IMG/VR virus record: IMGVR_UViG_3300010148_000114
Coordinates: 1 to 24,357 of that record
Origin: a virus
Reading direction: 5' to 3' (one strand)
Length of the DNA stretch: 24,357 nucleotides
The notes under the pieces are model-generated. The model saw nothing but the letters and a program-made list of their open reading frames with translations. It was not told the origin of the DNA and made no database searches. The stretch's first letter is position 1; each line of letters opens with the position of its first letter. The translations under genes and the position numbers were made by a program. Below, one piece after another: positions 1 through 13,137 of the stretch.

Positions 1-198
1 ACTAATAAAGATTTAGCAGACCTTGTAGGAATGGCACACAAAATTCGTATGGACGAACTCAAAGCTCAAACAGAACTAGAAAAAGCAAAAGCAGCAAACA
101 TAAAAAGTCAAACAAATGTACAGATAAATAGTGGAGAGTTACCTTTTGGACAAGGAAACTATGGTGAGCTTATGAAAAAACTTCTGAAAGAAAAATAA
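1..198 (+). CDS. C-terminal end of an unidentified protein (5' partial)
   Basis: The reading frame is open from base 1 to a TAA at 196-198, giving the last 65 residues of a protein that begins outside the window. The visible part is hydrophilic and mostly helical, with a Lys/Glu/Ala-rich stretch (about residues 18-35) that could form a coiled coil. It ends in a Lys-rich tail. The stop overlaps the next start by one base (TAATG), so the two genes are probably translationally coupled. I do not recognise the family, and too little is visible to assign a role. Confidence 0.75.
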   Translation, partial: TNKDLADLVGMAHKIRMDELKAQTELEKAKAANIKSQTNVQINSGELPFGQGNYGELMKKLLKEK

Positions 199-491
199 TG
201 AACATTTGGAATCTAATATCACAAGTAGGTGCACCAATAGCAGGAGCACTTGTTATGGGTATGTTTATATTTGTAATTATGAAACAAATCTTTGGAGGAG
301 TTGTAAATCAAGTAAAAACTCTTGAAGGATTTTGTAATAGTCTTATAACTAGAATTAAAACTATGAACAACGATATAATTAGATTAGATACTAGCGTAAG
401 TTCTGCTCTTGAACTTACACCAGACTTAGACAGAATAGCAAGAGCGGAAAATTTTATAGAGGACGGAAAGTTAGATGTCAGGCGTGATTGA
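198..491 (+). CDS. Small one-pass membrane protein, holin-like, paralogue of the next gene
   Basis: This 97-residue protein has a single hydrophobic segment near the N-terminus (about residues 8-29), then an amphipathic, charged helical tail. That is the layout of small phage holin-like proteins such as the BhlA type, but I see no diagnostic motif, so holin is an inference from architecture. The tail motif MNNDIIRL (about residues 56-63) is nearly repeated as LDNDMIRL in the gene at 475-726, so the two look like diverged duplicates. The gene lies directly upstream of the curli genes. It could serve in lysis or as a membrane partner of another protein. The start overlaps the preceding stop. 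Confidence 0.7.
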   Translation: MNIWNLISQVGAPIAGALVMGMFIFVIMKQIFGGVVNQVKTLEGFCNSLITRIKTMNNDIIRLDTSVSSALELTPDLDRIARAENFIEDGKLDVRRD

Positions 492-726
492 TGCCATACA
501 ACAGTTTGGATTTCCAATTGTTGCTATGGTTGGACTTGGATACTTTGTATATTATGTGTGGTTAACAATTACAAAAGTAATACAACCAGCAATAAAAAGT
601 ATGCACTTTACCCTGATAAAACTAATAGACCAGATTCGTATGCTTGATAACGATATGATTCGTTTACAGCAAAAGGTAAACACCGTTTTACAGATGAAAG
701 AGAATGAACGAAAGAAAGATAAATAA
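475..726 (+). CDS. Small one-pass membrane protein, holin-like, paralogue of the previous gene
   Basis: The 83-residue product has one N-terminal membrane segment (about residues 11-34) followed by a helical, highly charged tail ending in a Lys/Glu cluster. The NDMIRLQQKV stretch matches the equivalent region of the upstream paralogue. The start ATG lies 17 bases inside the upstream gene, preceded by a purine-rich GGACGGAAAG. Two related small membrane proteins in tandem could be a holin pair or a holin and antiholin, or subunits of one hetero-oligomer. The next gene (csgF) begins within its 3' end. Function is inferred only from layout. Confidence 0.7.
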   Translation: MSGVIDAIQQFGFPIVAMVGLGYFVYYVWLTITKVIQPAIKSMHFTLIKLIDQIRMLDNDMIRLQQKVNTVLQMKENERKKDK

Positions 727-1234
727 CCGACTCTCTAATGTAGTAGTAGGTACTATACTTATATTGATGAGTATTATTTTTATTGCAGAATTAAATGCAA
801 CAGAAATAGTACACAAGTTTTCTAACCCTAGTTTTAGTGGAATCAATCAATCTGCACATTATTTAACAATAGATGAGCAAGAAAGAACTCGTAAAGAAAA
901 AATTAGAGCAGACGCTCAAGAAGCATTAGAAGATGCTCAAAGAGAAGCAGATAATACAACACTTGCTAAGTTCCTCAGAAACTTAGAATCAAGGATATAT
1001 TCAACACTTGCAAAAGATATATCTGAATCCTTATTTAACTATGACAACCCCGCCACTTCTGAAAATCCAATTTATGGAGAAATAGAACTAGAAGGCAATA
1101 TTATTCAATGGTTAAATAACGGCATAACAATCACTCTTACCATTATAGAGATGGCAGATGGAGTAGAAATTTCTAGAACTACAATAACAATACCAGTTGG
1201 AAGTTTCGGTGGTTGTGTTGTAGACTGTGGTTAA
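704..1234 (+). CDS. csgF: CsgF-like curli assembly/transport factor
   Basis: This 176-residue exported protein matches the CsgF layout. It has an N-terminal hydrophobic signal segment (about 12-30, likely cleavage near NA/TE at 32-33), then the family signature FSNPSFSG (39-46), which in E. coli CsgF (FRNPNFGG) plugs into the CsgG pore. A charged helix follows (about 55-83). The C-terminal part has the CsgF pattern of a long helix and a beta-strand domain (NLESRIYSTL, then ITLTIIEMADG and TTITIPV). In curli systems CsgF works at the cell surface with CsgG to couple nucleation to secretion. The immediately downstream gene is csgG. Unlike E. coli CsgF as I recall it, this protein ends in a CX3C pair (Cys171, Cys175). 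The first ATG is chosen because the later Met22 would cut into the signal segment. Confidence 0.87.
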   Translation: MNERKINNRLSNVVVGTILILMSIIFIAELNATEIVHKFSNPSFSGINQSAHYLTIDEQERTRKEKIRADAQEALEDAQREADNTTLAKFLRNLESRIYSTLAKDISESLFNYDNPATSENPIYGEIELEGNIIQWLNNGITITLTIIEMADGVEISRTTITIPVGSFGGCVVDCG

Positions 1235-2057
1235 ATATTTAGTAATCGCATTATTATTACAAGGCTGCGCAAGTATAGGCATGCAACAATATCATTCAAA
1301 CTGCACAGACGGATTGCTATGTGTAGAAGGCCCAGTACTAGAGCCTAGTACAACAAAACAACTTTTAGATTTACCAACACCCAACCAAAAAACTGTGGTC
1401 GCAGTTTACGCATTTCCAGATTTAACAGGACAAAGAAAATCAAGCGATAATATTGCAAGTTTTAGTACTGCTGTTACACAAGGAGCAGAACACATATTAA
1501 TTGAAGCACTTCGTGATGCCGGTAGAGGTGACTGGTTTGCAGTTGTTGAAAGAAGTGGATTAGACCATGTTACAAAAGAAAGACAACTAGTAAGAAGTAC
1601 TTTTGAAAGCTACAATAGAGGTGCAGACGGTAAAACAATACTAAAACCACTAATATATGCAGGAATGTTAATAGAAGGCGGTATAATTGCATATGATACA
1701 AATTTAAAAACAGGCGGTAATGGTGCAAGATATCTAGGTATAGGTATGAAGAATCAGTATCGTGAGGATAAAGTAACTGTCGTCCTTAGAGCTGTGCTAG
1801 TGCAAACTGGTGAAGTACTCTTAAATGTAACAGCTACAAAAACGATTTTATCTACTGGGGGTGGAATGGACACGTTTCGTTTTATAGAAATGGGAACAGA
1901 GTTAGTTGAACTTGAAAGTGGATATTCAGAAAACGAGGCAGTTGGATACGCCGTGCGTGCCGCTATAGAAGCAGGTGTGTATGGTTTAGTTATGCAGGGC
2001 CTTGAAAAAGAAGTTTGGGATTTTGATTATTCCAAACTGAGAGAGGAAGAGAAATGA
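1227..2057 (+). CDS. csgG: CsgG-like curli secretion channel, outer-membrane lipoprotein
   Basis: The 276-residue protein is a clear CsgG. It starts with a lipoprotein signal (LLLQGC, acylated Cys14) and carries the family landmarks FSTAV (79-83), GARYLGIG (167-173), an LRAVLVQTGEVL strand (187-198), TKTILS (204-209), FRFIE (217-221) and SENEAV (234-239). CsgG forms a nonameric beta-barrel pore in the outer membrane that exports unfolded curli subunits. Length equals the E. coli protein within a few residues. By my alignment, the constriction residue Phe56 of E. coli is kept (Phe79). Asn55 is replaced by Ser78, and Tyr51 falls at Asp74 beside a one-residue insertion. Translation probably starts at the GTG overlapping the csgF stop. 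There is a CX5C pair near the N-terminus (Cys26, Cys32). Confidence 0.95.
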   Translation: MVKYLVIALLLQGCASIGMQQYHSNCTDGLLCVEGPVLEPSTTKQLLDLPTPNQKTVVAVYAFPDLTGQRKSSDNIASFSTAVTQGAEHILIEALRDAGRGDWFAVVERSGLDHVTKERQLVRSTFESYNRGADGKTILKPLIYAGMLIEGGIIAYDTNLKTGGNGARYLGIGMKNQYREDKVTVVLRAVLVQTGEVLLNVTATKTILSTGGGMDTFRFIEMGTELVELESGYSENEAVGYAVRAAIEAGVYGLVMQGLEKEVWDFDYSKLREEEK

Positions 2058-2731
2058 GAAAGATACTAGGACTATTCGCGATATGTCTATCTTTTGGAAC
2101 ATTTGCAGCAAATAATGATATTTATATCACTCAGACTGGTACAGGACTTACCTTGACAATTGACCAAATAGGTGCTAGTAACACCGTTGGTACTTCATCA
2201 AGTAGAGTAACCTTGTCAGGTACTTCTATGACTGTAGATATTGACCAGATTGGAGATAGTAACTCCTTTCTTGCTAGTATACTACAAGGTAATTCATCAA
2301 GTTGGACTTGGCTAAATACAGGTGATAGTAATACAGGAACTTTTACTGTTGGTGGAACAGGCGACGTAGCAAACTCAGACTTTGACTACAGCGCAACTGG
2401 TGACAGCAACATATTTACTTGGACACAAGGTGCGGCTGCTACAGCTACTGGAGGTAACCAAGATTTTACAATCACTGGTACTTCTAATGAGTACACAGGT
2501 ACTTGTGAGGTAGTTGGTTGTATAAATGCCTGGACTATTAGTGGAAATAGTAATGACATTACTACTACACAAACAGGTTCAGCCGACCACCAGATAACAG
2601 CATCGTTAACTGGTAATTCAAATACTGTAACTATTGACCAAACTGATACTGCATCAACAAATGTTGTGAATTTAATTTCAACAACAACAAATGGAACAAT
2701 AGACGTTGACCAATGCGCTTCTGGCTGTTAA
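2054..2731 (+). CDS. Curlin-repeat secreted protein, first copy (CsgA/CsgB-like)
   Basis: This 225-residue protein has a cleavable signal peptide (about residues 1-19, cleavage near FAA/NN) and then about eight imperfect units of roughly 22 residues. Each carries a G-x-SN turn, as in GASNT, GDSNS, GDSNT, GDSNI, GTSNE, GNSND and GNSNT, often preceded by IDQIG or a similar strand. This is the Gln/Asn/Gly curlin beta-solenoid pattern, so it is probably an amyloid fibre subunit or nucleator exported through CsgG. The repeats are more degenerate than in CsgA, and Ser/Thr-rich. Four cysteines (151, 156, 221, 225) are unusual for curlins; the last pair forms CASGC at the C-terminus. An ATGA overlap with csgG and a GGAAGAG site set the start. 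Confidence 0.88.
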   Translation: MRKILGLFAICLSFGTFAANNDIYITQTGTGLTLTIDQIGASNTVGTSSSRVTLSGTSMTVDIDQIGDSNSFLASILQGNSSSWTWLNTGDSNTGTFTVGGTGDVANSDFDYSATGDSNIFTWTQGAAATATGGNQDFTITGTSNEYTGTCEVVGCINAWTISGNSNDITTTQTGSADHQITASLTGNSNTVTIDQTDTASTNVVNLISTTTNGTIDVDQCASGC

Positions 2732-3819
2732 TATTTTTTATAGGAACAATCAGTGCGTCCGAAATAGGAGGAATATCTGAGATAAAAGGAAACGGAGAGA
2801 TAACTAGAGCAGACTCTAGTGACGCACTCACCGCAGAACTAAACTCAGATATTTTCTCTTATGATGATGTAAGAACAGGCAAAGGAAGACTAGCAATACA
2901 GTTTCTAGATGACTCTGTAGTAAAACTTACAGAACACTCAAAACTCATTATAGATGAATATATTTTTGACCCAGACCCAAACAAAAGCAAAATGGCTCTT
3001 AACATGGCTTCTGGAACTGCTCGTTTTATTACTGGCAAACTTGGAAGGATTAACAAGCAAAATATTTCTATAAAAACACCAACAGCTACGATAGGTATTC
3101 GTGGCACAGATTTTACAACTACTGTAGATGAATTAGGAAGAAGTTTAGTTATACTACTTCCAGATGAAGACGGAACCTCATCAGGAGAAATAACCGTAAC
3201 AACAGCATCTGGAGTAGAGATACTAAATGAACCTTTTCAGGCTACAATGGTATCAGCGTGGGAAACACCACCAACAAGACCAGTAACCCTGGCAAATATG
3301 ACTCTCGGGTTGATTGACAATATGTTAATTGTTAGTAGGCCTGAAGAAGTCAATGAAGCAGTAGAAGAGCAACAAACAGGAGTGTCACCTACTGCAGAAC
3401 TAGATAAAGATTTCTTTGAAGATGCACCAGATTTAGACTGTGATGCATTAGTTGAAGAATGTGACGAAGAAGAAAAAGAAATCACAAGATTAGACATAGA
3501 TTTATTATCTATAGACTTACTAGTAGATTTATTAGCATTAGTAGAAACAGCTAGTAAGAAAGCAAAAAATCAACAAGCTACTACTATTAGTAATGTAGAG
3601 TTAACAGGTATTATTGCAGGGTTTGACCCAGTATACCAAACTTTTACATTTGTTGAAGATGGACTTATTTATTTCGTACATGAAGGAGTAAATAGTTACG
3701 ATATAGGAATAGATACAGACACAGGAACATATTTATATATAAATAATGCAGGAGTAATAATGGAGGTAGAAATAAATGGTGCGGGCGATAATGTTATCAT
3801 TATTAATCAGTCTCCCTAG
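2713..3819 (+). CDS. Secreted FecR-domain protein with a curlin-like C-terminal motif
   Basis: The 368-residue protein has a short signal peptide (about 1-16). A FecR domain follows (about 48-135), recognised from GRLAIQFLDDSVVKL, the middle strand ending ASGTARFITG, and the signature TPTATIGIRGTDF. The rest is an acidic linker rich in Asp/Glu (about 200-265, with a CX6C pair), a helical segment, and a beta-rich C-terminus ending GAGDNVIIINQSP, which reads like one curlin repeat. In bacteria, FecR domains occur in periplasmic sensors and regulators and often sit beside CHASE2 cyclases; one lies two genes downstream here. It could therefore link fibre assembly to the cyclase, which is inference. 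The start lies inside the end of the curlin gene, and the stop lies inside the next one. Confidence 0.85.
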   Translation: MRFWLLIFFIGTISASEIGGISEIKGNGEITRADSSDALTAELNSDIFSYDDVRTGKGRLAIQFLDDSVVKLTEHSKLIIDEYIFDPDPNKSKMALNMASGTARFITGKLGRINKQNISIKTPTATIGIRGTDFTTTVDELGRSLVILLPDEDGTSSGEITVTTASGVEILNEPFQATMVSAWETPPTRPVTLANMTLGLIDNMLIVSRPEEVNEAVEEQQTGVSPTAELDKDFFEDAPDLDCDALVEECDEEEKEITRLDIDLLSIDLLVDLLALVETASKKAKNQQATTISNVELTGIIAGFDPVYQTFTFVEDGLIYFVHEGVNSYDIGIDTDTGTYLYINNAGVIMEVEINGAGDNVIIINQSP

Positions 3820-4576
3820 TTTTGCAGGAGATAATAGTCTTACTATAAAAACTAAAGGAACTGGTACTAGCATTACTGCTAAACAAGTAGGTAACGGTAA
3901 TGAAGGATACATACTATGCGGAGCAAACTCTAGCGGTTCACTACCCGGCACTTCCTACGTTTCACATACTTGTGGAAGCGCAACACTCAGTACTACAGTT
4001 ATAGGTAATAGTAATAATACTAGACTTTATACTGTATGGTCAAATAATATGGATAATAATTATACTATTACTATAGATGGAAATGATAATTTTGCTTGGC
4101 TAGACCAAGATGAAGACGATAATACTTCTACAATTACTCAGACAGGAGATGATAATCACGCAGAGCAGTTAGGTTCTGGAGATGATAATACATATTCAAT
4201 AACTCAAACAGGAGATGATAAGTATGCTAAGATATTTACTTTTGGAGATAACTCCGCTTTTACTATTAATCAGTATGGTAGTGGAGAACATAATACTTAC
4301 ATCTACAATCACTCAAACGCAGACAATAATACTGCTTCAGTAACACAGTATGGTACAGGAAATAAAGATGCAGATATATTCTTTTACAGCGATGCCGATA
4401 ATACAACTGTGAACTTAACACAATATGGAGCAGGGGCTCATGTAGCAAATATGAAATTTTATACTGACGATTATAATTTAAATGTTACTCAATCAGGAAC
4501 AACTAATCAAGCGTATACTGCAACTTTTAACTGTACATCAAACTGTACAAAGACTATAACTATAACACAAGAATGA
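3776..4576 (+). CDS. Curlin-repeat secreted protein, second copy
   Basis: This 266-residue product has a signal peptide (about 1-17, LLISLPSFAG) and then Gly/Asn/Asp-rich curlin repeats. The clearest units carry ITQTGDDN, ITQTGDD, INQYGSG, VTQYGTG, LTQYGAG and VTQSG, spaced about 20-24 residues apart. The I-x-Q-x-G turns are better preserved than in the first copy, so this may be the main fibre subunit, and the first copy a nucleator or minor subunit. Cysteines occur as one pair in the first third and as a CX3C pair (CTSNC) near the end. A strong GGAGG site lies 9 bases before the ATG, itself inside the 3' end of the FecR gene, suggesting high, coupled translation. Aspartate is abundant, so the repeats may bind calcium. 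Confidence 0.88.
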   Translation: MVRAIMLSLLISLPSFAGDNSLTIKTKGTGTSITAKQVGNGNEGYILCGANSSGSLPGTSYVSHTCGSATLSTTVIGNSNNTRLYTVWSNNMDNNYTITIDGNDNFAWLDQDEDDNTSTITQTGDDNHAEQLGSGDDNTYSITQTGDDKYAKIFTFGDNSAFTINQYGSGEHNTYIYNHSNADNNTASVTQYGTGNKDADIFFYSDADNTTVNLTQYGAGAHVANMKFYTDDYNLNVTQSGTTNQAYTATFNCTSNCTKTITITQE

Positions 4577-4959
4577 TAGAATACGCATTAATAGCAGACT
4601 TTAACTTTGCACAAATAAAAGAAGATTCAGCAAGAATAGATTCATATTTAGAAAGTCAAAAAATAGAGTTTGTAATAGATAACTCAATAGATTATGAAAT
4701 AAAACAATATATTCTTTGGAATATAGCAGACCTTTATACAACACATAGAGCTATGGAAACAACTTCTGCAAAAGAACAAAATCCTTTTTTACCGAGTAAT
4801 CCTGAACTTCATGAACTATTAATTCATAAAGCAACGTCTACTATTTCCATAGAACTATTAGGGTGGTTTGATGAAGAACTAAACGAAAATTTATTTACTT
4901 TAAATAGTTTAGGTTGGATAGTTGTATTTAATAATTTAGATGTACTATATGATAAATAA
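4573..4959 (+). CDS. Small protein of unknown function with a DUF5658-like motif
   Basis: The 128-residue protein overlaps the second curlin gene by ATGA and ends inside the cyclase gene, so it is embedded in this cluster. Residues 48-74 contain ADLYTTH and then EQNPFLP, followed by a lysine about 12 residues later. This resembles the D-x-x-TT ... E-x-NP ... K pattern of small DUF5658-type membrane proteins. That assignment is tentative, as the hydrophobic segments here are weak; the best candidates are about 45-56 and 106-125. The first 40 residues are acidic and soluble-looking. No catalytic role can be read from it. Confidence 0.65.
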   Translation: MIEYALIADFNFAQIKEDSARIDSYLESQKIEFVIDNSIDYEIKQYILWNIADLYTTHRAMETTSAKEQNPFLPSNPELHELLIHKATSTISIELLGWFDEELNENLFTLNSLGWIVVFNNLDVLYDK

Positions 4960-6733
4960 AATACTCACTTTAATTTTTGCACTAGGATTATTTATATGGA
5001 ATCCTTATCCAATGCAAATTCTAGAGCTCAAAACATTTGATTGGTTAATGTTATCACAACCAAAAATTCAAAATGAAAACATACTTATAGTAGACTTAGA
5101 TGAAGAAATAGTAGAGGCCTATGGAGGATATCCTTTGCCACGTTCTTTATTTGCGTCTATGATAGAAAAAACAGAAGGCATTCCTGGATTTACTATATTA
5201 ATGCCTGACCCAGATTTACGAGATAAAAATAACGACACTACATTAGCGATGTCTTTATTAAATAATCCAACTGTGTTAGCTTATGCAGCTTCAACACAAG
5301 CAACTGAAAAAGGTGCTCATGTGGGTACAGCTCAGTTAGGAGAAGACCCAATACCATGGCTATTAAACTATCCAGGAATTTTAAGACAACTACCAATTTT
5401 ACAAGTAAACGCAGACGGCGTAGGATTAATAAACTCCTCCCCAGAAGTAGACGGCGTCGTAAGACGTATGCCCGTAGTCGTCGCAAGCAAAGATAAAATA
5501 TTTCCTTCTTTTAGTTTAGAGATGTTAAGACTTGCAGTTGGTGACCCCAGCTATCAAATTAAGACTAATCAGGTAGGAGTAGAATGGTTAAGAATACCAA
5601 ACTATCCACTTATAAATACAGATTCAAATGGAAGAATATGGATAAATACTAATATAAATTTTTACAAACAAACTGCAGCTGAATATATGGCAGACCCAAT
5701 ACCAGCGCCCTTTGTTATATTTGGAGTTACAGCAGAAGGAGTAGTTAACCCTGTTCCAACTGCCTCAGGAGCAAAGTATCCTCATGAGATACAAGCGAAT
5801 GTACTCCACAATTTAATTGAAGGTACCGCACCCTCAATTCCCAACTGGAGTAGTGGAGCAGAGCTGGGAGCTGCAGTCTTGGCTTTGCTCTTTCTTTTAC
5901 TTACAGCAAGTAGAATCTATTTAAGTATACCTGCTCTACTCTTAGTTATTGGAGGTTCAATATATGGAGCCATATATGCTTTTGAATCTTCTTATTTGTT
6001 TGACGTTTCTGGGATTATTTTAATCTCCTTTTTATTCTGGAGTATTGAAAGTTTCCGTAATTTTGCAAAGACCTATTTTGAGAAATTACAAATTAAACAA
6101 CAATTTGGAACGTATGTAAGTCCTGACTTAGTAAAAAAATTACAGGACGACCCAACATTACTGAGATTGGGCGGGGAGACAAAACGACTCACTTTTCTTT
6201 TTTCTGATATTAGAGGATTCACACCAATCTCAGAAAAATATCAAAAAAATCCTCAAGGACTCACACAACTTATTAACAGATTCCTTGATAACCAAACACA
6301 AATCATACTAAAACATGGAGGCACCATTGATAAATATATGGGAGACTGTATCATGGCATTTTGGGGTGCACCACTTGATGACGAAGACCAAGTTAATAAT
6401 GCCACAAAGGCTGTCTTAGAAATGAGACTAGCACTAGGAGAATTAAATGAAAGACTCAGAGAAGAAGGCTTGGATACGATTAATACAGGAGCGGGAATCA
6501 ACACAGGACTCTGCGTGGTCGGTAACTTTGGTTCTAGCAATCGTTTTGATTACTCTGTACTTGGGGATAGCGTTAATCTAGCAGCCCGTTTAGAGTCAAG
6601 TTGTAAAGATTATGATACCGATTTAATTATTTCAGAATATAGTTTACTTGATGATTATGATTACGAGTTTCTAGACGAAGTAAAGGTCAAAGGCAAGTCA
6701 GAGCCCGTTAAAATCTATACCATACGAAAATAG
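4940..6733 (+). CDS. CHASE2-domain receptor-type class III adenylate cyclase
   Basis: The 597-residue protein has an N-terminal membrane segment (about 7-20), an extracytoplasmic CHASE2 sensor domain (about 28-295, with ILIVDLDEE near its start), three membrane segments (about 308-325, 327-346, 353-371), and a cytoplasmic class III nucleotidyl cyclase domain (about 412-597). The catalytic set looks complete: metal-binding Asp423 (FSDIRGF) and Asp469 (KYMGD), adenine-selecting Lys465, Ser539 at the Asp/Thr position, and transition-state Asn546 and Arg550 (VNLAAR). The Lys and Ser favour ATP, so it should make cAMP in response to a periplasmic or membrane signal. Start is at 4940, or possibly the Met codon at 4949. 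Such a receptor is unexpected in a phage and completes a FecR-CHASE2 pairing. Confidence 0.92.
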   Translation: MYYMINKILTLIFALGLFIWNPYPMQILELKTFDWLMLSQPKIQNENILIVDLDEEIVEAYGGYPLPRSLFASMIEKTEGIPGFTILMPDPDLRDKNNDTTLAMSLLNNPTVLAYAASTQATEKGAHVGTAQLGEDPIPWLLNYPGILRQLPILQVNADGVGLINSSPEVDGVVRRMPVVVASKDKIFPSFSLEMLRLAVGDPSYQIKTNQVGVEWLRIPNYPLINTDSNGRIWINTNINFYKQTAAEYMADPIPAPFVIFGVTAEGVVNPVPTASGAKYPHEIQANVLHNLIEGTAPSIPNWSSGAELGAAVLALLFLLLTASRIYLSIPALLLVIGGSIYGAIYAFESSYLFDVSGIILISFLFWSIESFRNFAKTYFEKLQIKQQFGTYVSPDLVKKLQDDPTLLRLGGETKRLTFLFSDIRGFTPISEKYQKNPQGLTQLINRFLDNQTQIILKHGGTIDKYMGDCIMAFWGAPLDDEDQVNNATKAVLEMRLALGELNERLREEGLDTINTGAGINTGLCVVGNFGSSNRFDYSVLGDSVNLAARLESSCKDYDTDLIISEYSLLDDYDYEFLDEVKVKGKSEPVKIYTIRK

Positions 6734-6736
6734 GTC

Positions 6737-6765
6737 TTGACAATTTTGCTTAGTTTTGATATAAT
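6737..6765 (+). promoter_or_regulatory. Consensus sigma70 promoter for the small-gene region
   Basis: A perfect -35 box TTGACA (6737-6742) and a perfect -10 box TATAAT (6760-6765) are separated by the ideal 17 bases. The promoter starts four bases after the cyclase stop and lies in one of the few real intergenic gaps. Transcription should begin near 6772. The 5' leader contains a small GAAGA/TCTTC hairpin (6777-6790), then an AAAGGAA ribosome site ahead of the ATG at 6810. A perfect match suggests expression by host RNA polymerase without a phage activator. Confidence 0.9.
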
Positions 6766-6809
6766 TACAATCATAAGAAGAAAAATCTTCAAGAAAAAAA
6801 GGAATAAGC

Positions 6810-7007
6810 ATGGAGGCCAAACAAGTAGCTGCAGAATTAGAAAAGTATAAAGCTGTGAGTGCAGAAAGATGGAAAACTGCGTTTAACAGGTTTGATGCTA
6901 TAGACCTACAAGTTGGTAGATTAGAAACTATACTTATTGGAGCAGCTGGAGCAATAATTGCAGGTGGCTGCGGTGTATTATGGACTATACTATCTATGCA
7001 CCCATAG
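6810..7007 (+). CDS. Small coiled-coil plus membrane-anchor protein, XhlA-like
   Basis: The 65-residue protein has an N-terminal charged helix (1-38) with heptad-like spacing, then one C-terminal hydrophobic segment (about 40-62, rich in Ile, Ala and Gly) and a very short tail. This matches the layout of XhlA-type haemolysin/holin accessory proteins, though short length makes that tentative. An AAAGGAA site sits just ahead of the ATG. It is the first gene after the consensus promoter. It could be a third small membrane protein linked to lysis, or a superinfection-exclusion peptide. Confidence 0.68.
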   Translation: MEAKQVAAELEKYKAVSAERWKTAFNRFDAIDLQVGRLETILIGAAGAIIAGGCGVLWTILSMHP

Positions 7008-7948: not shown

Positions 7949-8093
7949 AGGCGGATATAGATTCGGTAAAACAGGAAAGATTCATAGAACTAAGAAAGCT
8001 GCTGACAGACAAGCAAGAGCAATATACGCATCAGGTTATGGTAAGAAAAAAACGAGACCCAAGAAAAGGAACAGGAAAAAAACCAAAAGGTAG
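7929..8093 (+). CDS. Small basic conserved-type phage protein (54 residues)
   Basis: An ATG at 7929, overlapping the end of the previous gene, opens a 54-residue frame to TAG at 8091-8093. It begins MPVRKVKGGYRFGKTGK and continues with a helix containing AADRQARAIYASGYGKKK. This glycine-tyrosine hairpin plus AIYASGY helix is a pattern I recall from small proteins in many marine and cyanobacterial phages. The Lys/Arg-rich last 15 residues overlap the next gene in another frame. Role unknown; the charge suggests nucleic acid contact. Confidence 0.7.
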   Translation: MPVRKVKGGYRFGKTGKIHRTKKAADRQARAIYASGYGKKKTRPKKRNRKKTKR

Positions 8094-8352
8094 CGGCAGA
8101 AGACTTTATACTGACGAGAATCCAAAAGATACTGTCAGAATTAAGTTTGCTACTGCAAAAGACGCACGAGCTACAGTACGAAAAGTTAAAAGAGTTCGTA
8201 AATCTTACGCAAGAAAAATACAAATACTAACAGTAGGTGAACAAAGAGCAAGAGTGATGGGAAAGAAAACAGTCGCATCAATCTTCAAGTCTGCGAAGGC
8301 AGGATTAAGGAGAGCACATGGTCGTAAGAAGAAGAAAAAGAAAGGCCGCTAA
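8038..8352 (+). CDS. Basic conserved-type phage protein (104 residues)
   Basis: The 104-residue protein has disordered Lys/Arg-rich ends and a folded-looking centre (about 30-90). The centre reads IKFATAKDARATVRKVK, then ARKIQILTVGEQRARVMGK, and is the part most likely conserved among phages. The C-terminus carries six consecutive lysines. The start lies 56 bases inside the previous gene, and the end overlaps the next by 35 bases. It may bind DNA or act in assembly; no enzymatic motif is visible. The Lys-rich ends resemble ribosomal proteins only in composition. Confidence 0.72.
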   Translation: MVRKKRDPRKGTGKKPKGSGRRLYTDENPKDTVRIKFATAKDARATVRKVKRVRKSYARKIQILTVGEQRARVMGKKTVASIFKSAKAGLRRAHGRKKKKKKGR

Positions 8353-8512
8353 AAAGAGACCACTACCAACAAACCCAACTCTTTATGCTAGAGTAAAAGC
8401 TGAGGCAAAGAGAAAGTTTAAAGTATACCCTTCCGCATATGCAAATGGGTGGTTAGTAAGAACATACAAAAAACGTGGCGGACGTTTTAGAATGGGAGTA
8501 AAGAAACGATGA
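8318..8512 (+). CDS. Basic small protein with a PSAYANGWLV motif (DUF-type)
   Basis: This 64-residue protein has an Arg/Lys-rich start. A helix with LYARVKAEAKRKFKVYPSAY follows, then ANGWLVRTYKKRGGRFR. The YPSAYANGWLV...YKKRGG signature recurs in small proteins of phages and giant viruses; I connect it tentatively with the DUF5872/DUF6321-type families. A GGAGAG site precedes the ATG. The gene belongs to the coupled cluster of basic proteins. Specific function unknown. Confidence 0.72.
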   Translation: MVVRRRKRKAAKKRPLPTNPTLYARVKAEAKRKFKVYPSAYANGWLVRTYKKRGGRFRMGVKKR

Positions 8513-8640
8513 TAGATTATATCAAAGAAACCTTCCTTCAGTTTTGGAATATTCTTTCGGGAAAGGATAAAAACTGGGACGGCTCTGTTGACATCAAAGA
8601 TAAAATGATAGAAGCAGAAGAAAAAGTAAAAAATGGCTAA
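8509..8640 (+). CDS. EF-hand-like microprotein (43 residues)
   Basis: The ATG overlaps the previous stop (ATGA) and opens a 43-residue acidic frame with GGGAG about 10 bases upstream. Residues 20-31 read DKNWDGSVDIKD. Asp1, Asn3, Asp5, Gly6, a hydrophobic at 8, Asp9 and Asp12 fit an EF-hand or dockerin-type calcium loop. It is preceded by an aromatic helix (YIKETFLQFWNIL) and followed by a charged helix, so it could be a complete single EF-hand unit. It is the only clearly acidic protein among strongly basic neighbours. Calcium binding is inferred from the motif. Confidence 0.65.
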   Translation: MIDYIKETFLQFWNILSGKDKNWDGSVDIKDKMIEAEEKVKNG

Positions 8641-8935
8641 GTATCAAGGCGGACTAACTAAATGGTTTAAAGAAGGTTGGGTAGATATATCTAGACCTAG
8701 AAAAGGCGGTGGTTATCAGCCTTGTGGCAGAAAATCTGCAAGAAAAAGCAAAAGCGGATATCCGAAATGTGTCCCTGCTAGTAAAGCTGCAAGAATGACT
8801 AAATCACAAATAAAGTCAGCAGTTAGAAGAAAAAGAGCAGCTGGTAATCCAGGAGGAAAACCAAGAAATGTTGCTACTTTTGCTAAGAGGGGTAGAAAGA
8901 AAAAAAGAACTACCAGAAGCAGACGCAAAAGATAA
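8633..8935 (+). CDS. Basic conserved-type phage protein with a GLTKWFKEGWVDI motif
   Basis: This 100-residue basic protein opens with GLTKWFKEGWVDISRP, followed by a Gly-rich turn, PCGRKSARKS, and PKCVPASKAARMTKSQIKS. The basic tail (VRRKRAAGNPGGKP) closes with a run of Lys/Arg. The first half, with its W/D motif and two cysteines, is a recognisable small domain shared by phage and large-virus proteins (DUF5872/DUF6321-type in my memory; exact number unsure). Overlap with the preceding gene is eight bases. Probably nucleic acid binding; role unknown. Confidence 0.75.
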   Translation: MAKYQGGLTKWFKEGWVDISRPRKGGGYQPCGRKSARKSKSGYPKCVPASKAARMTKSQIKSAVRRKRAAGNPGGKPRNVATFAKRGRKKKRTTRSRRKR

Positions 8936-8951
8936 TCCTAAAAAGGAAACC

Positions 8952-9128
8952 ATGAAAGAAAACTTAGTATATGAAATACTTGGTGTTGTGTCCATGTCAA
9001 TAAGACTAAAAAGAACAATAGAAGATAAGATTTCTTGGGGGATTCAGCTTCGTGAGTTGCTTCAACTCCCAAAAAACAAAGCTAACAGTAATATCGTTAG
9101 AGAATATTTAAAAGATGGCACTCAATAA
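8952..9128 (+). CDS. Small hypothetical protein (58 residues)
   Basis: The frame extends upstream to 8868 in the same phase, but the ATG at 8952 has an AAAAGGAAACC site just before it, and the extension would lie inside the previous gene. The 58-residue product is helical (ENLVYEILGVVSMSIRLKR, then a second helix) with mixed charge, unlike the surrounding Lys-rich proteins. It could be a small winged-helix or subunit-type protein. The next start overlaps its 3' end. Not recognised. Confidence 0.62.
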   Translation: MKENLVYEILGVVSMSIRLKRTIEDKISWGIQLRELLQLPKNKANSNIVREYLKDGTQ

Positions 9129-9315
9129 ACGAAAACACTCAGCATTTTTACGAAATAAACATGTTTATAAATCACCAGGCCCTGCTAAAAAAGCAGCGAC
9201 TAAACTGGGATTAAAAGGCATACATGCTCATGGCAGAGGAAAAGCCAAGAGATTTATGCCAGGAAGCTCTCATAAAGCATATAGAAATGCATTGAGAAAG
9301 AAAAGGAGAAAATAA
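9115..9315 (+). CDS. Basic small protein (66 residues)
   Basis: This 66-residue protein is rich in Lys, Arg, Ala and His, with a central PGPAKKAATKLGLKGIHAHG and MPGSSHKAYRNAL. It ends in a Lys/Arg cluster. Its stop abuts the next ATG directly (TAA then ATG). The repeated AKKAAxK/KGI pattern suggests a small fold that binds phosphate backbones, which is inference. Part of the basic cluster upstream of the terminase. Confidence 0.68.
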   Translation: MALNKRKHSAFLRNKHVYKSPGPAKKAATKLGLKGIHAHGRGKAKRFMPGSSHKAYRNALRKKRRK

Positions 9316-9558
9316 ATGGCAGGTAAATTTTTAAGCGGACCAAGTATTCACAATACTCAAAAAATCCGTAAGCATGTTCTCAAAAGAGGACTAACAAGAG
9401 ATATGAATGCAGCTGCAGGAACTTTAGTAAATACTAAAAATCCTAATGGCATAGAGGCATTTAGATATGCTACTGCACCAAAGGGCATAGGCCCACGTTT
9501 TGGCAAAACTAAAAATCCACCAAAAGCAAGATTTCCCGGAAGGAGAAGAAGAAGATAG
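9316..9558 (+). CDS. Basic small protein (80 residues)
   Basis: The 80-residue protein starts right after the previous stop and contains a moderately hydrophilic core (GPSIHNTQKIRKHVLKRG, then a segment with GIEAFRYATAPKGIG). It ends in a Pro/Lys/Arg tail with five final arginines. The purine-rich end of the previous gene (AGGAGAA) gives the ribosome site. Role unknown. A 75-base gap follows (9559-9633) with no convincing gene or promoter. Confidence 0.68.
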   Translation: MAGKFLSGPSIHNTQKIRKHVLKRGLTRDMNAAAGTLVNTKNPNGIEAFRYATAPKGIGPRFGKTKNPPKARFPGRRRRR

Positions 9559-9633
9559 ATATTTATAATAAATTTCATACTTTAATGAAATCAGGTAGAT
9601 TACCTAAAGTTTGTAAGATAGCAGGAATAAATA

Positions 9634-9963
9634 ATGGCACTAACAAAAGCAGAAAAAGCAAGATTAAAAAGAGCAGGGTTATCAAAGTTAAACAAACCAA
9701 AAAGAACACCTAATCATAGAACTAAAAAAGCTGTTGTTGCTACAAGAGTTGGTGGCAAGGTAAAAATTATTCGTTTTGGAGCACAAGGCATGGGGCATAA
9801 CTATAGCCCCGAGGCCAGAAGAAGTTTCAAGGCTAGACATAGGAAGAATATTGCAAAAGGCAGGTCTTCCGCAGCTTGGTGGGCAAATAAAGTCTTCTGG
9901 GCTGGAAAAGGTGGTAGTACAAAAAGACCACCAAAATCACAAAAACGTAAATTCGGAAAGTAG
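9634..9963 (+). CDS. Basic conserved-type phage protein with a SPEARRSFKARH motif
   Basis: The 109-residue protein has a Lys-rich N-terminus, a beta segment (VGGKVKIIRFGAQG), then GHNYSPEARRSFKARHRKNI, AKGRSSAAWWANKVFW, and a Lys-rich end. The combination of SPEAR, FKARH and AAWWANKVxW is familiar to me from proteins just upstream of terminase genes in marine phages. I cannot name a validated function. The consistent site next to the terminase suggests a packaging or DNA-associated role. A GCAGGAATAAAT site precedes the ATG. Confidence 0.75.
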   Translation: MALTKAEKARLKRAGLSKLNKPKRTPNHRTKKAVVATRVGGKVKIIRFGAQGMGHNYSPEARRSFKARHRKNIAKGRSSAAWWANKVFWAGKGGSTKRPPKSQKRKFGK

Positions 9964-9964
9964 T

Positions 9965-10210
9965 ATGGCACAAACACCAAAAGTAATAGATAGAAGAGTA
10001 GCATGGCTTGATGGAGTATCTGTAGAAGCAATAGAAATACTTGCAAAAATACAACATGAAGCCATTAACGGAGAAACTTTATCAGAGCACCAGAAAAATA
10101 TGACTGAGCTTTGTAGTGGTTACTTATATTTACTAAGACTATCTAAAGATTACGGACTTTTTGATTCAGACGACCCATTTAACTTATTTGAGAAAGAGAC
10201 CCTACATTGA
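9965..10210 (+). CDS. Small protein before TerL, possible small terminase subunit
   Basis: Start at ATG 9965, directly after the previous stop. A longer in-frame form from 9776 would lie entirely inside the previous gene. The 81-residue product is neutral to acidic and helical (SVEAIEILAKIQHEAINGE, then a long helix to YLYLLRL), with a short acidic C-terminus. Its position directly upstream of TerL is the usual place of a small terminase subunit, but it is short for one and shows no clear helix-turn-helix, so this is only a positional guess. Its stop overlaps the TerL TTG start. Confidence 0.6.
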   Translation: MAQTPKVIDRRVAWLDGVSVEAIEILAKIQHEAINGETLSEHQKNMTELCSGYLYLLRLSKDYGLFDSDDPFNLFEKETLH

Positions 10211-11508
10211 TAGAAATTAGTCGTTCAGATATAGTTTCAGACTATTTGATGAACTATGAAACAGAAGAAAGATTTATTAAACTACCTATTGAAGGGTATC
10301 TTGACTTATTGGGTATAGAACCTAACAGCTCACAATCAGCATTAATCAATGCAATCAATAATACAAAATATCGTTTTGTCTGCGCAGCAGTCGCTCGTCG
10401 TCAAGGCAAAACTTATATTTCAAACATAATCGGACAACTTATTTGTCTAGTTCCTAATAGTCATGTATTACTCATGTCACCTAACTACTCATTATCACAA
10501 ATATCATTTGACTTACAGAGAAATCTCATAAAGCATTTTGATTTAGAAGTTACAAGAGATAATGCAAAAGACAAAGTAATAGAACTATCAAATCAATCAA
10601 CAATTCGTATGGGTTCAATTAATCAGGTTGACTCCGTTGTTGGTAGAAGCTACGACTTAATTATCTTTGATGAAGCAGCACTAACAGACGGTAGAGACGC
10701 TTTCAATGTAGCACTCAGACCTACACTAGATAAAGATAACTCTAAAGCTATATTTATATCTACTCCAAGGGGTAGAAATAATTACTTTGCAGAATTTTAT
10801 CATCGTGGGTACAACGATGAATTTCCAGAATGGTGCAGTATAAAAGCTACTTGGCATGAAAATCCAAGAGTATCAGAACAAGATATTAAAGAAGCAAAAA
10901 AGACAATGTCGGAGTCAGAATTTAACCAAGAATATTTAGCAGACTTTAATGTATTTGAAGGTCAAATTTGGTCATTTAATTATGAACAATGCACATCAAA
11001 TTTATCAGAACTTGATACTAGAAACATGGACGTATTCGCAGGACTTGATGTTGGTTACAAAGACCCAACAGCTTTCTGTGTTATTGCGTATGATTGGGAC
11101 GAAAAGAAATACTATGTATTAGATGAATACTTAGACGCAGAAAGAACTACAGAACAACACGCAATACAAATACAAAAGTTAATAAAAAAATATGATATAG
11201 ATTATATTTATATTGATTCTGCTGCTCAACAAACAAGATATGACTTTGCACAAAACTATGATATTAGTACTATAAATGCAAAGAAATCTGTACTTGACGG
11301 AATAGGTCATGTAGCTGGTATAGTAGACAATGATTCTCTTATAGTAAATCAAACTTGCAAGCATGTCACTACATCACTAGACCAGTATCAATGGGATCCA
11401 AACCCAAATCTTATGAAAGAGAGACCAAAACATGATATGTCATCTCATATGGCAGATGCTTTACGATATGCGTTATATTCATTTGAAACTAGTGTCACCT
11501 CGTTCTAG
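10207..11508 (+). CDS. terL: Terminase large subunit (ATPase plus nuclease)
   Basis: The 433-residue protein is a full-length TerL. The ATPase part has an adenine/Walker A-type motif VARRQGKT (62-69), Walker B LIIFDEA (151-157, Asp155 and Glu156) and the coupling motif STPRG (185-189). The RNase H-like nuclease domain shows three metal-binding acids: Asp281 (GLDVGYKD), Asp337 (YIDSAA) and Asp417 (HMADALRYAL). It translocates DNA into the prohead and cuts it, with the portal encoded two genes on. The start appears to be TTG at 10207, overlapping the previous TGA; a shorter form from Met15 (10249) is possible. Family level assignment is firm; packaging strategy cannot be told from this alone. 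Confidence 0.95.
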   Translation: MIEISRSDIVSDYLMNYETEERFIKLPIEGYLDLLGIEPNSSQSALINAINNTKYRFVCAAVARRQGKTYISNIIGQLICLVPNSHVLLMSPNYSLSQISFDLQRNLIKHFDLEVTRDNAKDKVIELSNQSTIRMGSINQVDSVVGRSYDLIIFDEAALTDGRDAFNVALRPTLDKDNSKAIFISTPRGRNNYFAEFYHRGYNDEFPEWCSIKATWHENPRVSEQDIKEAKKTMSESEFNQEYLADFNVFEGQIWSFNYEQCTSNLSELDTRNMDVFAGLDVGYKDPTAFCVIAYDWDEKKYYVLDEYLDAERTTEQHAIQIQKLIKKYDIDYIYIDSAAQQTRYDFAQNYDISTINAKKSVLDGIGHVAGIVDNDSLIVNQTCKHVTTSLDQYQWDPNPNLMKERPKHDMSSHMADALRYALYSFETSVTSF

Positions 11509-11530
11509 ATGTACCTGTTAAAAATTGTAC

Positions 11531-11560
11531 TTGACATGTGGTGTGCCTTTTTGGTATAAT
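11531..11560 (+). promoter_or_regulatory. Consensus sigma70 promoter for the head genes
   Basis: TTGACA (11531-11536) and TATAAT (11555-11560) are both perfect and separated by 18 bases, lying in the 71-base gap after terL. Transcription should start near 11567. This rules out the upstream in-frame GTG at 11538 for the next gene and fixes its start at ATG 11580. It would drive the HNH, portal and capsid genes, needed at high level. Confidence 0.88.
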
Positions 11561-11579
11561 TCTAATTAAGAGTAGAAAT

Positions 11580-11954
11580 ATGAATTTAAAAAGAGATTTA
11601 GTTAAATATGTAAGAGATAAAGCTAAGTCACGATATAAAAAAGCAAGTGCTTGTTACATTTGTGGCAGTACTGAACAGTTAGATTTTCATCATTTTTATG
11701 GACTCACCGAATTACTAGAAACTTGGTTAAAAGAAAAGAATATAATTATTGAGACTGAACAAGACATACTAGAACTTCGTGAATCCTTTATTGATGAAAA
11801 TTTTGATAAATTATATGATTATACTGTAACTCTGTGTCACAATCATCATCTGAGACTTCACTCAATATATGGAAAGCGACCCAAACTGATAACAGCAGAG
11901 AAACAAAAGGATTGGGTCCAGATACAGAGAGATAAAAAATATGGCATGGTATGA
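11580..11954 (+). CDS. HNH endonuclease of the packaging module
   Basis: Start at ATG 11580, just downstream of the promoter, giving 124 residues. The HNH zinc-binding motif is clear: CYIC (25-28), DFHHFYG (35-41), and LCHNHHLRLH (85-94), with further acidic helices between. Phage HNH proteins beside terminase and portal (HK97 gp74 type) stimulate cleavage by the terminase in packaging; this fits the place between terL and portal. The nuclease could instead be a free-standing homing nuclease, but the compact length and promoter favour a packaging role. Its end overlaps the portal start by 14 bases. Confidence 0.85.
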   Translation: MNLKRDLVKYVRDKAKSRYKKASACYICGSTEQLDFHHFYGLTELLETWLKEKNIIIETEQDILELRESFIDENFDKLYDYTVTLCHNHHLRLHSIYGKRPKLITAEKQKDWVQIQRDKKYGMV

Positions 11955-13137
11955 TAGATTTTTAGGAGTACAAAGAGAGGAAAAACTAAACCCATCTCAG
12001 TTCGTAATTTCTAGAAATGAAGGAATGACTGTTGATTCTTTAGAACCAACAATAAGCTATAAAAATGCTTATGAACAACTAGAAATTGTAAACCGTGCTG
12101 TCAACATGATAGTTGACGATGTAGCAGAAATACCATATACAATAGGACAGCAAAACCCAGTAACTAATAATATAGTAAAAAATATTAGAAGGTCAAAAGT
12201 AGACTTACTAATAAATAGAGAACCAAATCCATTTCAAGATGTAAGTACTTTCAAAAGAAACTTAATTATTGATTTGATGATTGATGGTAACATATTTATA
12301 TATTATGATGGTGCTCATCTGTATCACTTACCAGCAGATAAAATGACAATCTATAGTGATGAGAATACTTACATTGAGAAGTACGAGTTTGATAATAGTA
12401 TTGAGTATAGTACAAATGAGATTATACATATAAAAGAAAATAGTTTTAAATCAATATACAGAGGAGTTCCAAGACTGAAACCAGCACTTAGAACAATGCA
12501 ACTTCTTATCAATATGAGAAACTTTCAAGATAACTTTTTCAAGAATGGAGCAGTGCCCGGTTTAGTACTAAAGAGTCCTAATACTTTATCTGAAAAAATT
12601 AAAGAAAGAATGTTACAAGCATGGATTTCACGGTACAATCCAAACACAGGAGGCAGAAGACCTCTATTTTTAGATGGCGGATTAGAAGTTGAAAACTTAA
12701 CAGAAGTAAACTTTAGAAACTTAGATTTTCAAGACGGAATCAAAGCAAATGAAAAGATTATACTAGAAGCTATGGGAATACCTCCAGTACTTATGGACGG
12801 TGGCAATAATGCAAATATAAGACCTAACCATAGACTATACTACTTAGAAACTATACTACCTATCGTAAGAAAGTTAGGAACAGCAATAGAAAGATTTTTT
12901 GGATTCGGGGTAGTTGAAGATGTTACAGGAATACCTGCACTTCAACCAGAATTAAGAGACCAAGCAGCTTACTATGCTACACTTGTAAATACAGGAATAA
13001 TGAGTCCAAATGAAGCAAGAGAAGCATTAGGCAAGGAACCAGTAGAAGGATTTGATGAGCCAAGAGTACCAGCAAATATAGCAGGCTCTGCCGCAAATCC
13101 AGAAGAAGGTGGCAGACCACCAGTAGAGGAAGAATAA
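11941..13137 (+). CDS. Portal protein, HK97 type
   Basis: The 398-residue protein has the order typical of HK97-type portals: an N-terminal segment with YKNAYEQLEIVNRAVNMI, the DVAEIPY strand, GNIFIYYDG, HLPADKM, and IIHIKEN. It ends with a helical stem region (MLQAWISRYNP, GGLEVENL, GIPPVLMDGG) and an extended Pro/Gly-rich tail. It forms the dodecameric channel at one capsid vertex through which TerL drives DNA. Length is normal for the family. Purine-rich GAGAGA precedes the ATG. Its final A is shared with the next gene start. Confidence 0.92.
   Translation: MAWYDRFLGVQREEKLNPSQFVISRNEGMTVDSLEPTISYKNAYEQLEIVNRAVNMIVDDVAEIPYTIGQQNPVTNNIVKNIRRSKVDLLINREPNPFQDVSTFKRNLIIDLMIDGNIFIYYDGAHLYHLPADKMTIYSDENTYIEKYEFDNSIEYSTNEIIHIKENSFKSIYRGVPRLKPALRTMQLLINMRNFQDNFFKNGAVPGLVLKSPNTLSEKIKERMLQAWISRYNPNTGGRRPLFLDGGLEVENLTEVNFRNLDFQDGIKANEKIILEAMGIPPVLMDGGNNANIRPNHRLYYLETILPIVRKLGTAIERFFGFGVVEDVTGIPALQPELRDQAAYYATLVNTGIMSPNEAREALGKEPVEGFDEPRVPANIAGSAANPEEGGRPPVEEE

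Follow-up and report, generated by a model that had tools for sequence, protein, structure and literature searches.

We find that the curli genes of a marine virus of bacteria form, together with genes for a FecR-domain protein and a CHASE2 adenylate cyclase, a module that is almost indivisible in phages and whose curli half and FecR-CHASE2 half lie apart in bacteria. The virus is represented by a 24,357-base IMG/VR virus record (IMGVR_UViG_3300010148_000114; the whole stretch is hereinafter designated the window), in whose sequence the open reading frame (ORF) coordinates given below are all present. The module is a run of nine genes at 198-6733, all on the plus strand and each overlapping its next neighbour in the ORF map. 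It is wider than first noted, beginning at 198 with two small membrane-protein genes (hereinafter designated TMa and TMb), and its gene order is found again in hundreds of phage contigs, far beyond chance. The reading we favour, held tentatively and at a little under even confidence, is that the phage has a curli module of its own with an integrated sensor; FecR would be an exported protein that anchors the fibre system or reports on it, and the CHASE2 cyclase would read it.

The curli (type VIII secretion) markers CsgG, CsgF and two Curlin_rpt proteins are all present by Pfam. The accessory protein CsgF (704..1234; Pfam CsgF 1.6e-11, which passes the cut-off) is followed by the outer-membrane pore CsgG (1227..2057; Pfam CsgG 5.6e-54), a first curlin-type fibre protein (2054..2731; Curlin_rpt 1e-4, 22.6 bits, which passes the cut-off) and, after FecR, a second (3776..4576; Curlin_rpt 8.5e-16). 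By family membership, CsgG and CsgF are the putative export pore and the curlins the putative fibre subunits, the fibres themselves being predicted. The FecR-domain protein is encoded at 2713..3819 (Pfam FecR 2.5e-13 over 2713-3816) and the 597-residue CHASE2 adenylate cyclase at 4940..6733 (Pfam CHASE2 5.4e-31 and Guanylate_cyc 3.1e-21 over 4940-6730). ORFs and Pfam agree with an earlier interpretation made from the letters alone (hereinafter designated the sequence-only reading), according to which these two genes flank one curlin gene and one small gene.

The module is almost indivisible in phages

Six viral-contig scans and two named records gave 413 loci with module genes, the window included. 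In dereplicated counts (clusters at 95% nucleotide identity with sufficient flanking sequence), CsgG is accompanied by FecR in 187/187 and by a curlin in 209/209 clusters, and by the cyclase in 131 of 133, the exceptions being L513 and L524. Starting from the cyclase, FecR is found in 144/144 and CsgG in 122/122 clusters; starting from FecR, CsgG is found in 191/191 and the cyclase in 142/143. The co-occurrence survey that the sequence-only reading had called for thus upholds its grouping among phages, where neither the cyclase nor CsgG was seen without FecR in these clusters. Large-contig relatives sometimes carry the cyclase kilobases off and the TM pair on the opposite strand, with both still there, and the CsgG proteins of divergent modules share just 42-55% identity. 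Since the viral scans started from CsgG, FecR and cyclase sequences of phages and took the best 80 loci each in five of the six, and since the available text of PMC9599517 describes FecR and cyclase as not always part of the module, the true co-occurrence rates in phages may be lower.

Two further observations concern the distribution and layout of the module. Viral contigs of jumbo-phage size (328-364 kb) also carry it (L510, L531, L534, L544, L533 and L517), and in L233 it is rearranged, with the cyclase upstream of the TM pair.

The two halves lie apart in bacteria

Both the CHASE2 and FecR families occur in 35 of 86 alphaproteobacterial genomes, and of the 86 CHASE2 genes there, 28 have a FecR gene at most 5 kb away, where uniform placement predicts 0.65 (the count leaves out one FecR and two CHASE2 matches below the family cut-off and keeps split matches separate), which bears out the earlier statement that the two are neighbours in bacteria. 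Among the 80 bacterial loci whose CHASE2 cyclases match most closely, a FecR-domain gene lies within 10 kb in 28 (in L422 only at E 0.0099) and directly upstream of the cyclase, on the same strand and with a gap of at most 110 bp, in 13. Profiles trained on phage CsgF, CsgG and curlin gave no match in these 80 loci, and CsgF was found in one of 40 genomes searched from the 80 with bacterial CHASE2-cyclase loci.

The bacterial FecR proteins beside CHASE2 cyclases are at least 700 residues long in 12/28 cases. Cadherin, Ig, RTX or FG-GAP repeats score above the Pfam cut-off in 9 of 11 such large proteins, with L380 just below it and L381 carrying TPR repeats, and a sub-cut-off match to the LapA retention module sits beside FecR in 5/7 (NCBIfam). 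By these family matches, the large bacterial FecR partners of CHASE2 cyclases would mostly be surface adhesins.

FecR and the CHASE2 cyclase are both absent from 38/38 bacterial CsgF/CsgG loci, each inspected over about 9.5 kb of flank or to the stretch end. Four of these loci came from the alphaproteobacterial and CHASE2-genome searches and 34 from a phylum-wide draw of 37 CsgF places, from which G216 was dropped as below the cut-off together with two duplicates of loci already counted. The surveyed grouping therefore does not extend to these bacterial curli loci, and the notion of the circuit as a general feature of bacterial curli is not supported. An origin of the whole unit from bacterial curli was rejected, given these 38 loci and the blank curli profiles in the 80 CHASE2-cyclase loci.

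Domain architecture of the FecR protein

The FecR protein begins with a hydrophobic segment (residues 3-21, simple hydropathy), most members have no later membrane span, and export is predicted. Its structural model has a mean predicted local distance difference test (pLDDT) score of 83.6 and matches PupR (6ovk) with Z 15.1 and a root-mean-square deviation (rmsd) of 2.7 over 135 aligned residues, the FecR fold spanning residues 15-206 (2755..3330). The first part of this fold (residues 15-111) resembles an adhesin membrane-anchoring domain: it matches 5ix9 with Z 7.5 and rmsd 2.3 over 74 aligned residues (TMt 0.74, rmsd 1.2 over 63 columns), and the same chain is matched by the FecR sequence profile (E 0.0051). 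The title of 5ix9, which we take to be the Marinomonas primoryensis adhesin, names a cell surface anchoring domain and an antifreeze protein chain. An NCBIfam scan of the window FecR gave no retention-module match.

FecR is the sole Pfam family common to all 118 members of our alignment A5 (118 of 119 chosen rows, with L341 omitted; alignment A7 holds 72 of those 118). Neither the anti-sigma N-terminal nor the STN family appears among the families listed for these members (25 of 28), and Pfam detects no FecI-type sigma factor among the ten scanned proteins at 198-7004.

Residues 285-368 (3565..3816) form a separate C-terminal beta domain, which modelled alone reaches pLDDT 93.4 and a predicted template modelling (pTM) score of 0.83. 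Its last strand is near-invariant (Ile 95%, Ile 98% and Gln 100%, n=118), Q366 being present in 118/118. The resulting C-terminal end, hydrophobic-x-hydrophobic-x-Gln (h-x-h-x-Q), is found in 243/244 phage FecR proteins and in 46/61 of a distant set. Curlins share it (176/207 second and 87/243 first curlins), and elsewhere it occurs in 44/3432 other viral ORFs and in none of 28 bacterial FecR, 239 CsgG, 252 cyclase or 225 CsgF proteins. In HH profile comparison, the FecR C-terminus scores 20.4 with curlin 2, above all 60 column shuffles (maximum 12.4); curlin 2 itself scored higher with two of three other profiles than with the FecR C-terminus. Curlin homology of this domain, suggested by the terminal motif, was dropped, and we retain a likeness at the level of the motif.

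The cyclase is predicted to sense in the periplasm and to synthesise cAMP

The CHASE2 domain (residues 13-319; 4976..5896) is predicted to be mostly periplasmic and the class III cyclase catalytic domain occupies residues 415-595 (6182..6724) by Pfam and alignment. Hydrophobic segments at residues 1-19, 312-330, 330-348 and 351-369 (simple hydropathy) indicate an N-terminal span, a periplasmic domain and three more spans. With an exported FecR and a periplasmic CHASE2, the predicted topology fits the proposal of the sequence-only reading that both domains face the outer side of the inner membrane.

In the alignment, the motifs FSDIRGFT, DKYMGD and VLGDSVNLAAR of the window cyclase coincide with the class III catalytic residues, presumably the metal-binding Asp pair, the adenine-binding Lys and Asp, and the Asn-Arg pair. 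The window cyclase thus has the residues for predicted synthesis of cyclic adenosine monophosphate (cAMP). A quick tree was built from 28 phage cyclases, chosen to represent 296 by clustering at 55% identity, and from 45 bacterial ones, the first among 75 that were usable; it places the 28 phage sequences in one clade versus the 45 bacterial ones (SH-aLRT 100).

FecR appears to co-vary with both the fibre machinery and CHASE2

We calculated partial correlations of protein distances across 162 phage loci. The FecR N-half correlates with CHASE2 at 0.23 (0.18 to 0.30), and the FecR C-domain with CHASE2 at -0.07. The N-half signal persists once CsgG, CsgF, the FecR C-domain and the cyclase domain are allowed for; residues 81-190 carry it (0.23) and the anchor-like residues 19-80 do not (0.02). 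On the fibre side, the C-domain correlates with CsgF at 0.39 and with CsgG at 0.19, and the N-half with CsgG at 0.39; the N-half value for the cyclase domain is 0.14. CsgG and CsgF correlate with CHASE2 at 0.08 and 0.01, respectively. The pattern agrees weakly with FecR as a bridge between the fibre machinery and CHASE2.

A pair of small membrane proteins opens the module

TMa (198..491) is a 97-residue protein with a single membrane span and a polar tail (hydrophobic segment 14-32; phrog_18771 8.5e-26), and TMb (475..726) is its 83-residue paralogue (hydrophobic segment 15-33; phrog_18771 2.5e-26). TM genes occur in 85/85 loci with room on both sides, at least two of them in 84/85, and pairs are found also at L119 3119-3757 and L118 2901-3463. 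In a collection of 50,697 phage records, TM homologues occur in 6 records only, all of them HTVC008M or Melnitz, both module-bearing, and 200 Pseudomonadota genomes gave a single partial match, within a 482-residue frame. Pfam kinase families, HisKA and HATPase included, matched none of 15 TM members, four of which show a weak YvrJ match (best 0.0033). At 97 and 83 residues and without any kinase family, the TM pair cannot be a histidine kinase. The 'histidine kinase' said in the available text of PMC9599517 always to precede the module is, judging from its position and its description there as short, most likely this pair of roughly 90-residue membrane proteins.

Other genes of the window

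The small accessory gene (4573..4959, 128 residues) stands between FecR and the cyclase in 47 of 239 ordered viral loci and matches no significant Pfam family (best Ap4A_phos_N 0.032 and DUF5658 0.067). Phage modules can do without the second curlin and the small gene, and 20/239 loci have neither of them between FecR and the cyclase. Pfam gave no match to the CsgE gate among the ten proteins at 198-7004; phage modules without CsgE are also described in the accessible part of PMC9599517. A separate 1,499-base record named as Salmonella phage (OR851715.1, hit H21) has a CsgG gene and is possibly a piece of bacterial DNA.

After the cyclase, a 65-residue protein at 6810-7007 likely combines a coiled coil and a membrane span; 134 viral loci hold relatives of it, which in some of them lie ahead of the TM pair instead. 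A series of short, very basic proteins with Lys/Arg-rich tails lies at 8038-9963, directly before the terminase gene. Downstream of the module follow terminase, portal, fused protease/major head protein, tail and tape-measure genes. The terminase (at most 49% identity) and portal (at most 41%), in the region 10207-13137, are nearest to a group of phages that includes Slocum, Eos and My1, which we take to be T5-like siphoviruses, and by these matches the window phage looks like a T5-like siphovirus. Such phages are not among the module carriers named in the available parts of the curli-phage literature.

A sensing model and its alternatives

In the model we favour, CsgG and CsgF would build an outer-membrane export pore, with the two curlins as fibre subunits. 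FecR would be exported to the periplasm, where its N-terminal part, adhesin anchor and FecR fold, would remain, while its C-terminal beta domain may engage the pore or fibre. The CHASE2 domain of the inner-membrane cyclase would contact and read the FecR part, so that the output of cAMP, acting on a putative target, would be set by pore or fibre assembly or occupancy. Phages would have united two units that are separate in bacteria, namely the cluster for curli secretion and the FecR-CHASE2 pair, the latter often associated there with large surface adhesins. The grouping noticed by the sequence-only reading is confirmed, and its interpretation as a sensing circuit, in which we infer the FecR-CHASE2 contact and the signal, is plausible and better grounded than before.

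Several observations weigh against this model. With the phage cyclases in one clade, the co-occurrence reflects one assembly followed by retention rather than independent origins, and unequal rates and non-independent pairs can bias, or even produce, the correlations given above. In bacteria, 52/80 CHASE2-cyclase loci have no FecR within 10 kb or to the stretch end. The match to 5ix9 is of modest strength (E 0.0051; Z 7.5) and covers residues that also belong to the FecR domain. At the other end of FecR, Curlin_rpt was found in 0/118 members, the window one included (E at most 1; 25 of 28 families listed), the HH probability of the C-terminus with curlin 2 is 4.9%, and the isolated C-terminal domain has no curli structure among the matches listed (best VIA, Z 3.2). 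All three cyclase motif patterns are matched by 242/307 phage cyclases, the rest departing from the consensus; in the Melnitz cyclase (L119 7826-9877), Ser replaces the conserved Asn and activity may be impaired. A receptor binding cyclic nucleotide monophosphate (cNMP; here cAMP) was found in 0/25 large phage contigs, so that a phage-encoded cAMP receptor was set aside and any cAMP effect would run via the host or via a so far unrecognised receptor.

Among the alternatives, FecR may be purely structural, as an anchor, plug or fibre nucleator at the CsgG pore, with the cyclase alone raising cAMP and reprogramming the host, so that the two share an operon and no mutual signalling. This possible but doubtful explanation would account for the tracking of CsgF and CsgG by the FecR C-domain (0.39 and 0.19), for the terminal motif common to FecR and curlin and for the FecR kept in L513 and L524, where no cyclase was found; it sits poorly with the FecR-CHASE2 gene pairs of bacteria without curli and with the tracking of CHASE2 by the N-half (0.23), a value in which CsgG, CsgF, the FecR C-domain and the cyclase domain are already allowed for. 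Alternatively, the pore and the TM pair could together make a channel across the envelope that serves uptake, secretion or the timing of lysis, with fibre and sensor secondary. TM genes in 85/85 testable loci, their confinement within the phage collection to the module-bearing HTVC008M and Melnitz records, and the lysis role proposed for Melnitz CsgG in the accessible text of PMC9004378 are in line with such a channel, which we nevertheless consider improbable: the curlin genes in 209/209 CsgG clusters with room imply that the fibre subunits are not dispensable baggage.

Neutral hitch-hiking, in which a single segment with all the genes passed from phage to phage and only linkage keeps them joined, would suit the single clade of phage cyclases and the cross-family transfer published in PMC9599517 (available text). 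Linkage alone does not predict retention at 42-55% CsgG identity or the rearranged gene orders, and we regard this explanation as very unlikely. Still less probability falls, in our estimate, to FecR as an iron or ferric-citrate regulator of the fibre genes, the role implied by its name, by its FecR domain and by the term iron-dependent regulator in the available text of PMC9599517. No anti-sigma or STN family is among those listed for the 118 members, no sigma factor is among the ten module-region proteins scanned, and FecR is predicted to be exported, mostly without a later membrane span. The iron regulator was set aside on the families and sigma factor not found, and such a function of FecR is unlikely.

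Beyond the sensing model for phages, a broader proposition, which strikes us as more unlikely than likely by a good measure, is that FecR-domain proteins are general CHASE2 ligands: they would be periplasmic anchors of surface appendages (giant adhesins in bacteria, curli fibres in these phages), and CHASE2 enzymes would convert the presence or state of the anchor into a second-messenger signal, the phage module with its TM pair being a compact, portable version. If FecR anchors are CHASE2 partners, an input that can be tested is at hand for many receptors not yet characterised, and the phage cluster offers a small test system. The picture of phage curli is corrected in that a two-protein membrane component, not a kinase, is always present, and the question becomes a sharper one, namely why phages of several lineages retain fibre and sensor.

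Comparison with known systems

CsgF and CsgG are described in pelagimyophages (PMC7029224, accessible part) and in Melnitz (PMC9004378, likewise), and Wittmers et al. 2022 (PMC9599517, available text) reported the same module in the same order, with evidence of cross-family transfer, from uncultivated pelagiphages of the podo- and myovirus types. With that report and the same order in HTVC008M and Melnitz, the gene grouping itself is known. The window shares with the pelagiphage type VIII secretion module the series CsgF, CsgG, curlin, FecR, second curlin and adenylate cyclase, with one or two short genes ahead. It differs in that its phage looks like a T5-like siphovirus rather than a podo- or myovirus, in the extra small gene before the cyclase, and in preceding short genes that are membrane proteins without a kinase domain; CHASE2 is nowhere mentioned in the available text. 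New beyond that text are the near-indivisibility in phages, the bacterial split, the adhesin-like FecR partners and N-terminus, and the TM pair in place of the 'histidine kinase'. Pelagibacter phage HTVC008M and Methylophilales phage Melnitz, both annotated Kyanoviridae, have the identical gene order, TM pair included, but their cyclases are 35-37% identical to that of the window.

The literature searched gave no paper that connects the FecR of phages with CHASE2 or with the anchoring of adhesins. In Sinorhizobium meliloti, CyaD1/CyaD2/CyaK with NsrA (PMC13001267, available text) likewise place a CHASE2 cyclase with cAMP output downstream of an outer-membrane beta-barrel; the signal there is a plant protein, and FecR is absent from that text. 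The Burkholderia BiofilmReg operon (PMC5192318, accessible part), in which an exported FecR-domain protein adjoins a CHASE2 receptor and which has a link to biofilm, is similar in its gene pairing; its receptor, by contrast, is a histidine kinase with a response regulator, its FecR carries LysM, and the operon has no curli genes. The same text stated in 2016 that the stimulus perceived by CHASE2 domains was unknown. The anchoring or retention domain of the M. primoryensis adhesin is presented in the available portions of PMC13090378 and PMC12077191 as a wider feature of outer-membrane-held adhesins, and phage FecR may have an N-terminal anchoring-domain fold similar to that of the LapA and M. 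primoryensis retention modules. Unlike those giant type I secretion adhesins, the phage FecR is a short, separate protein.

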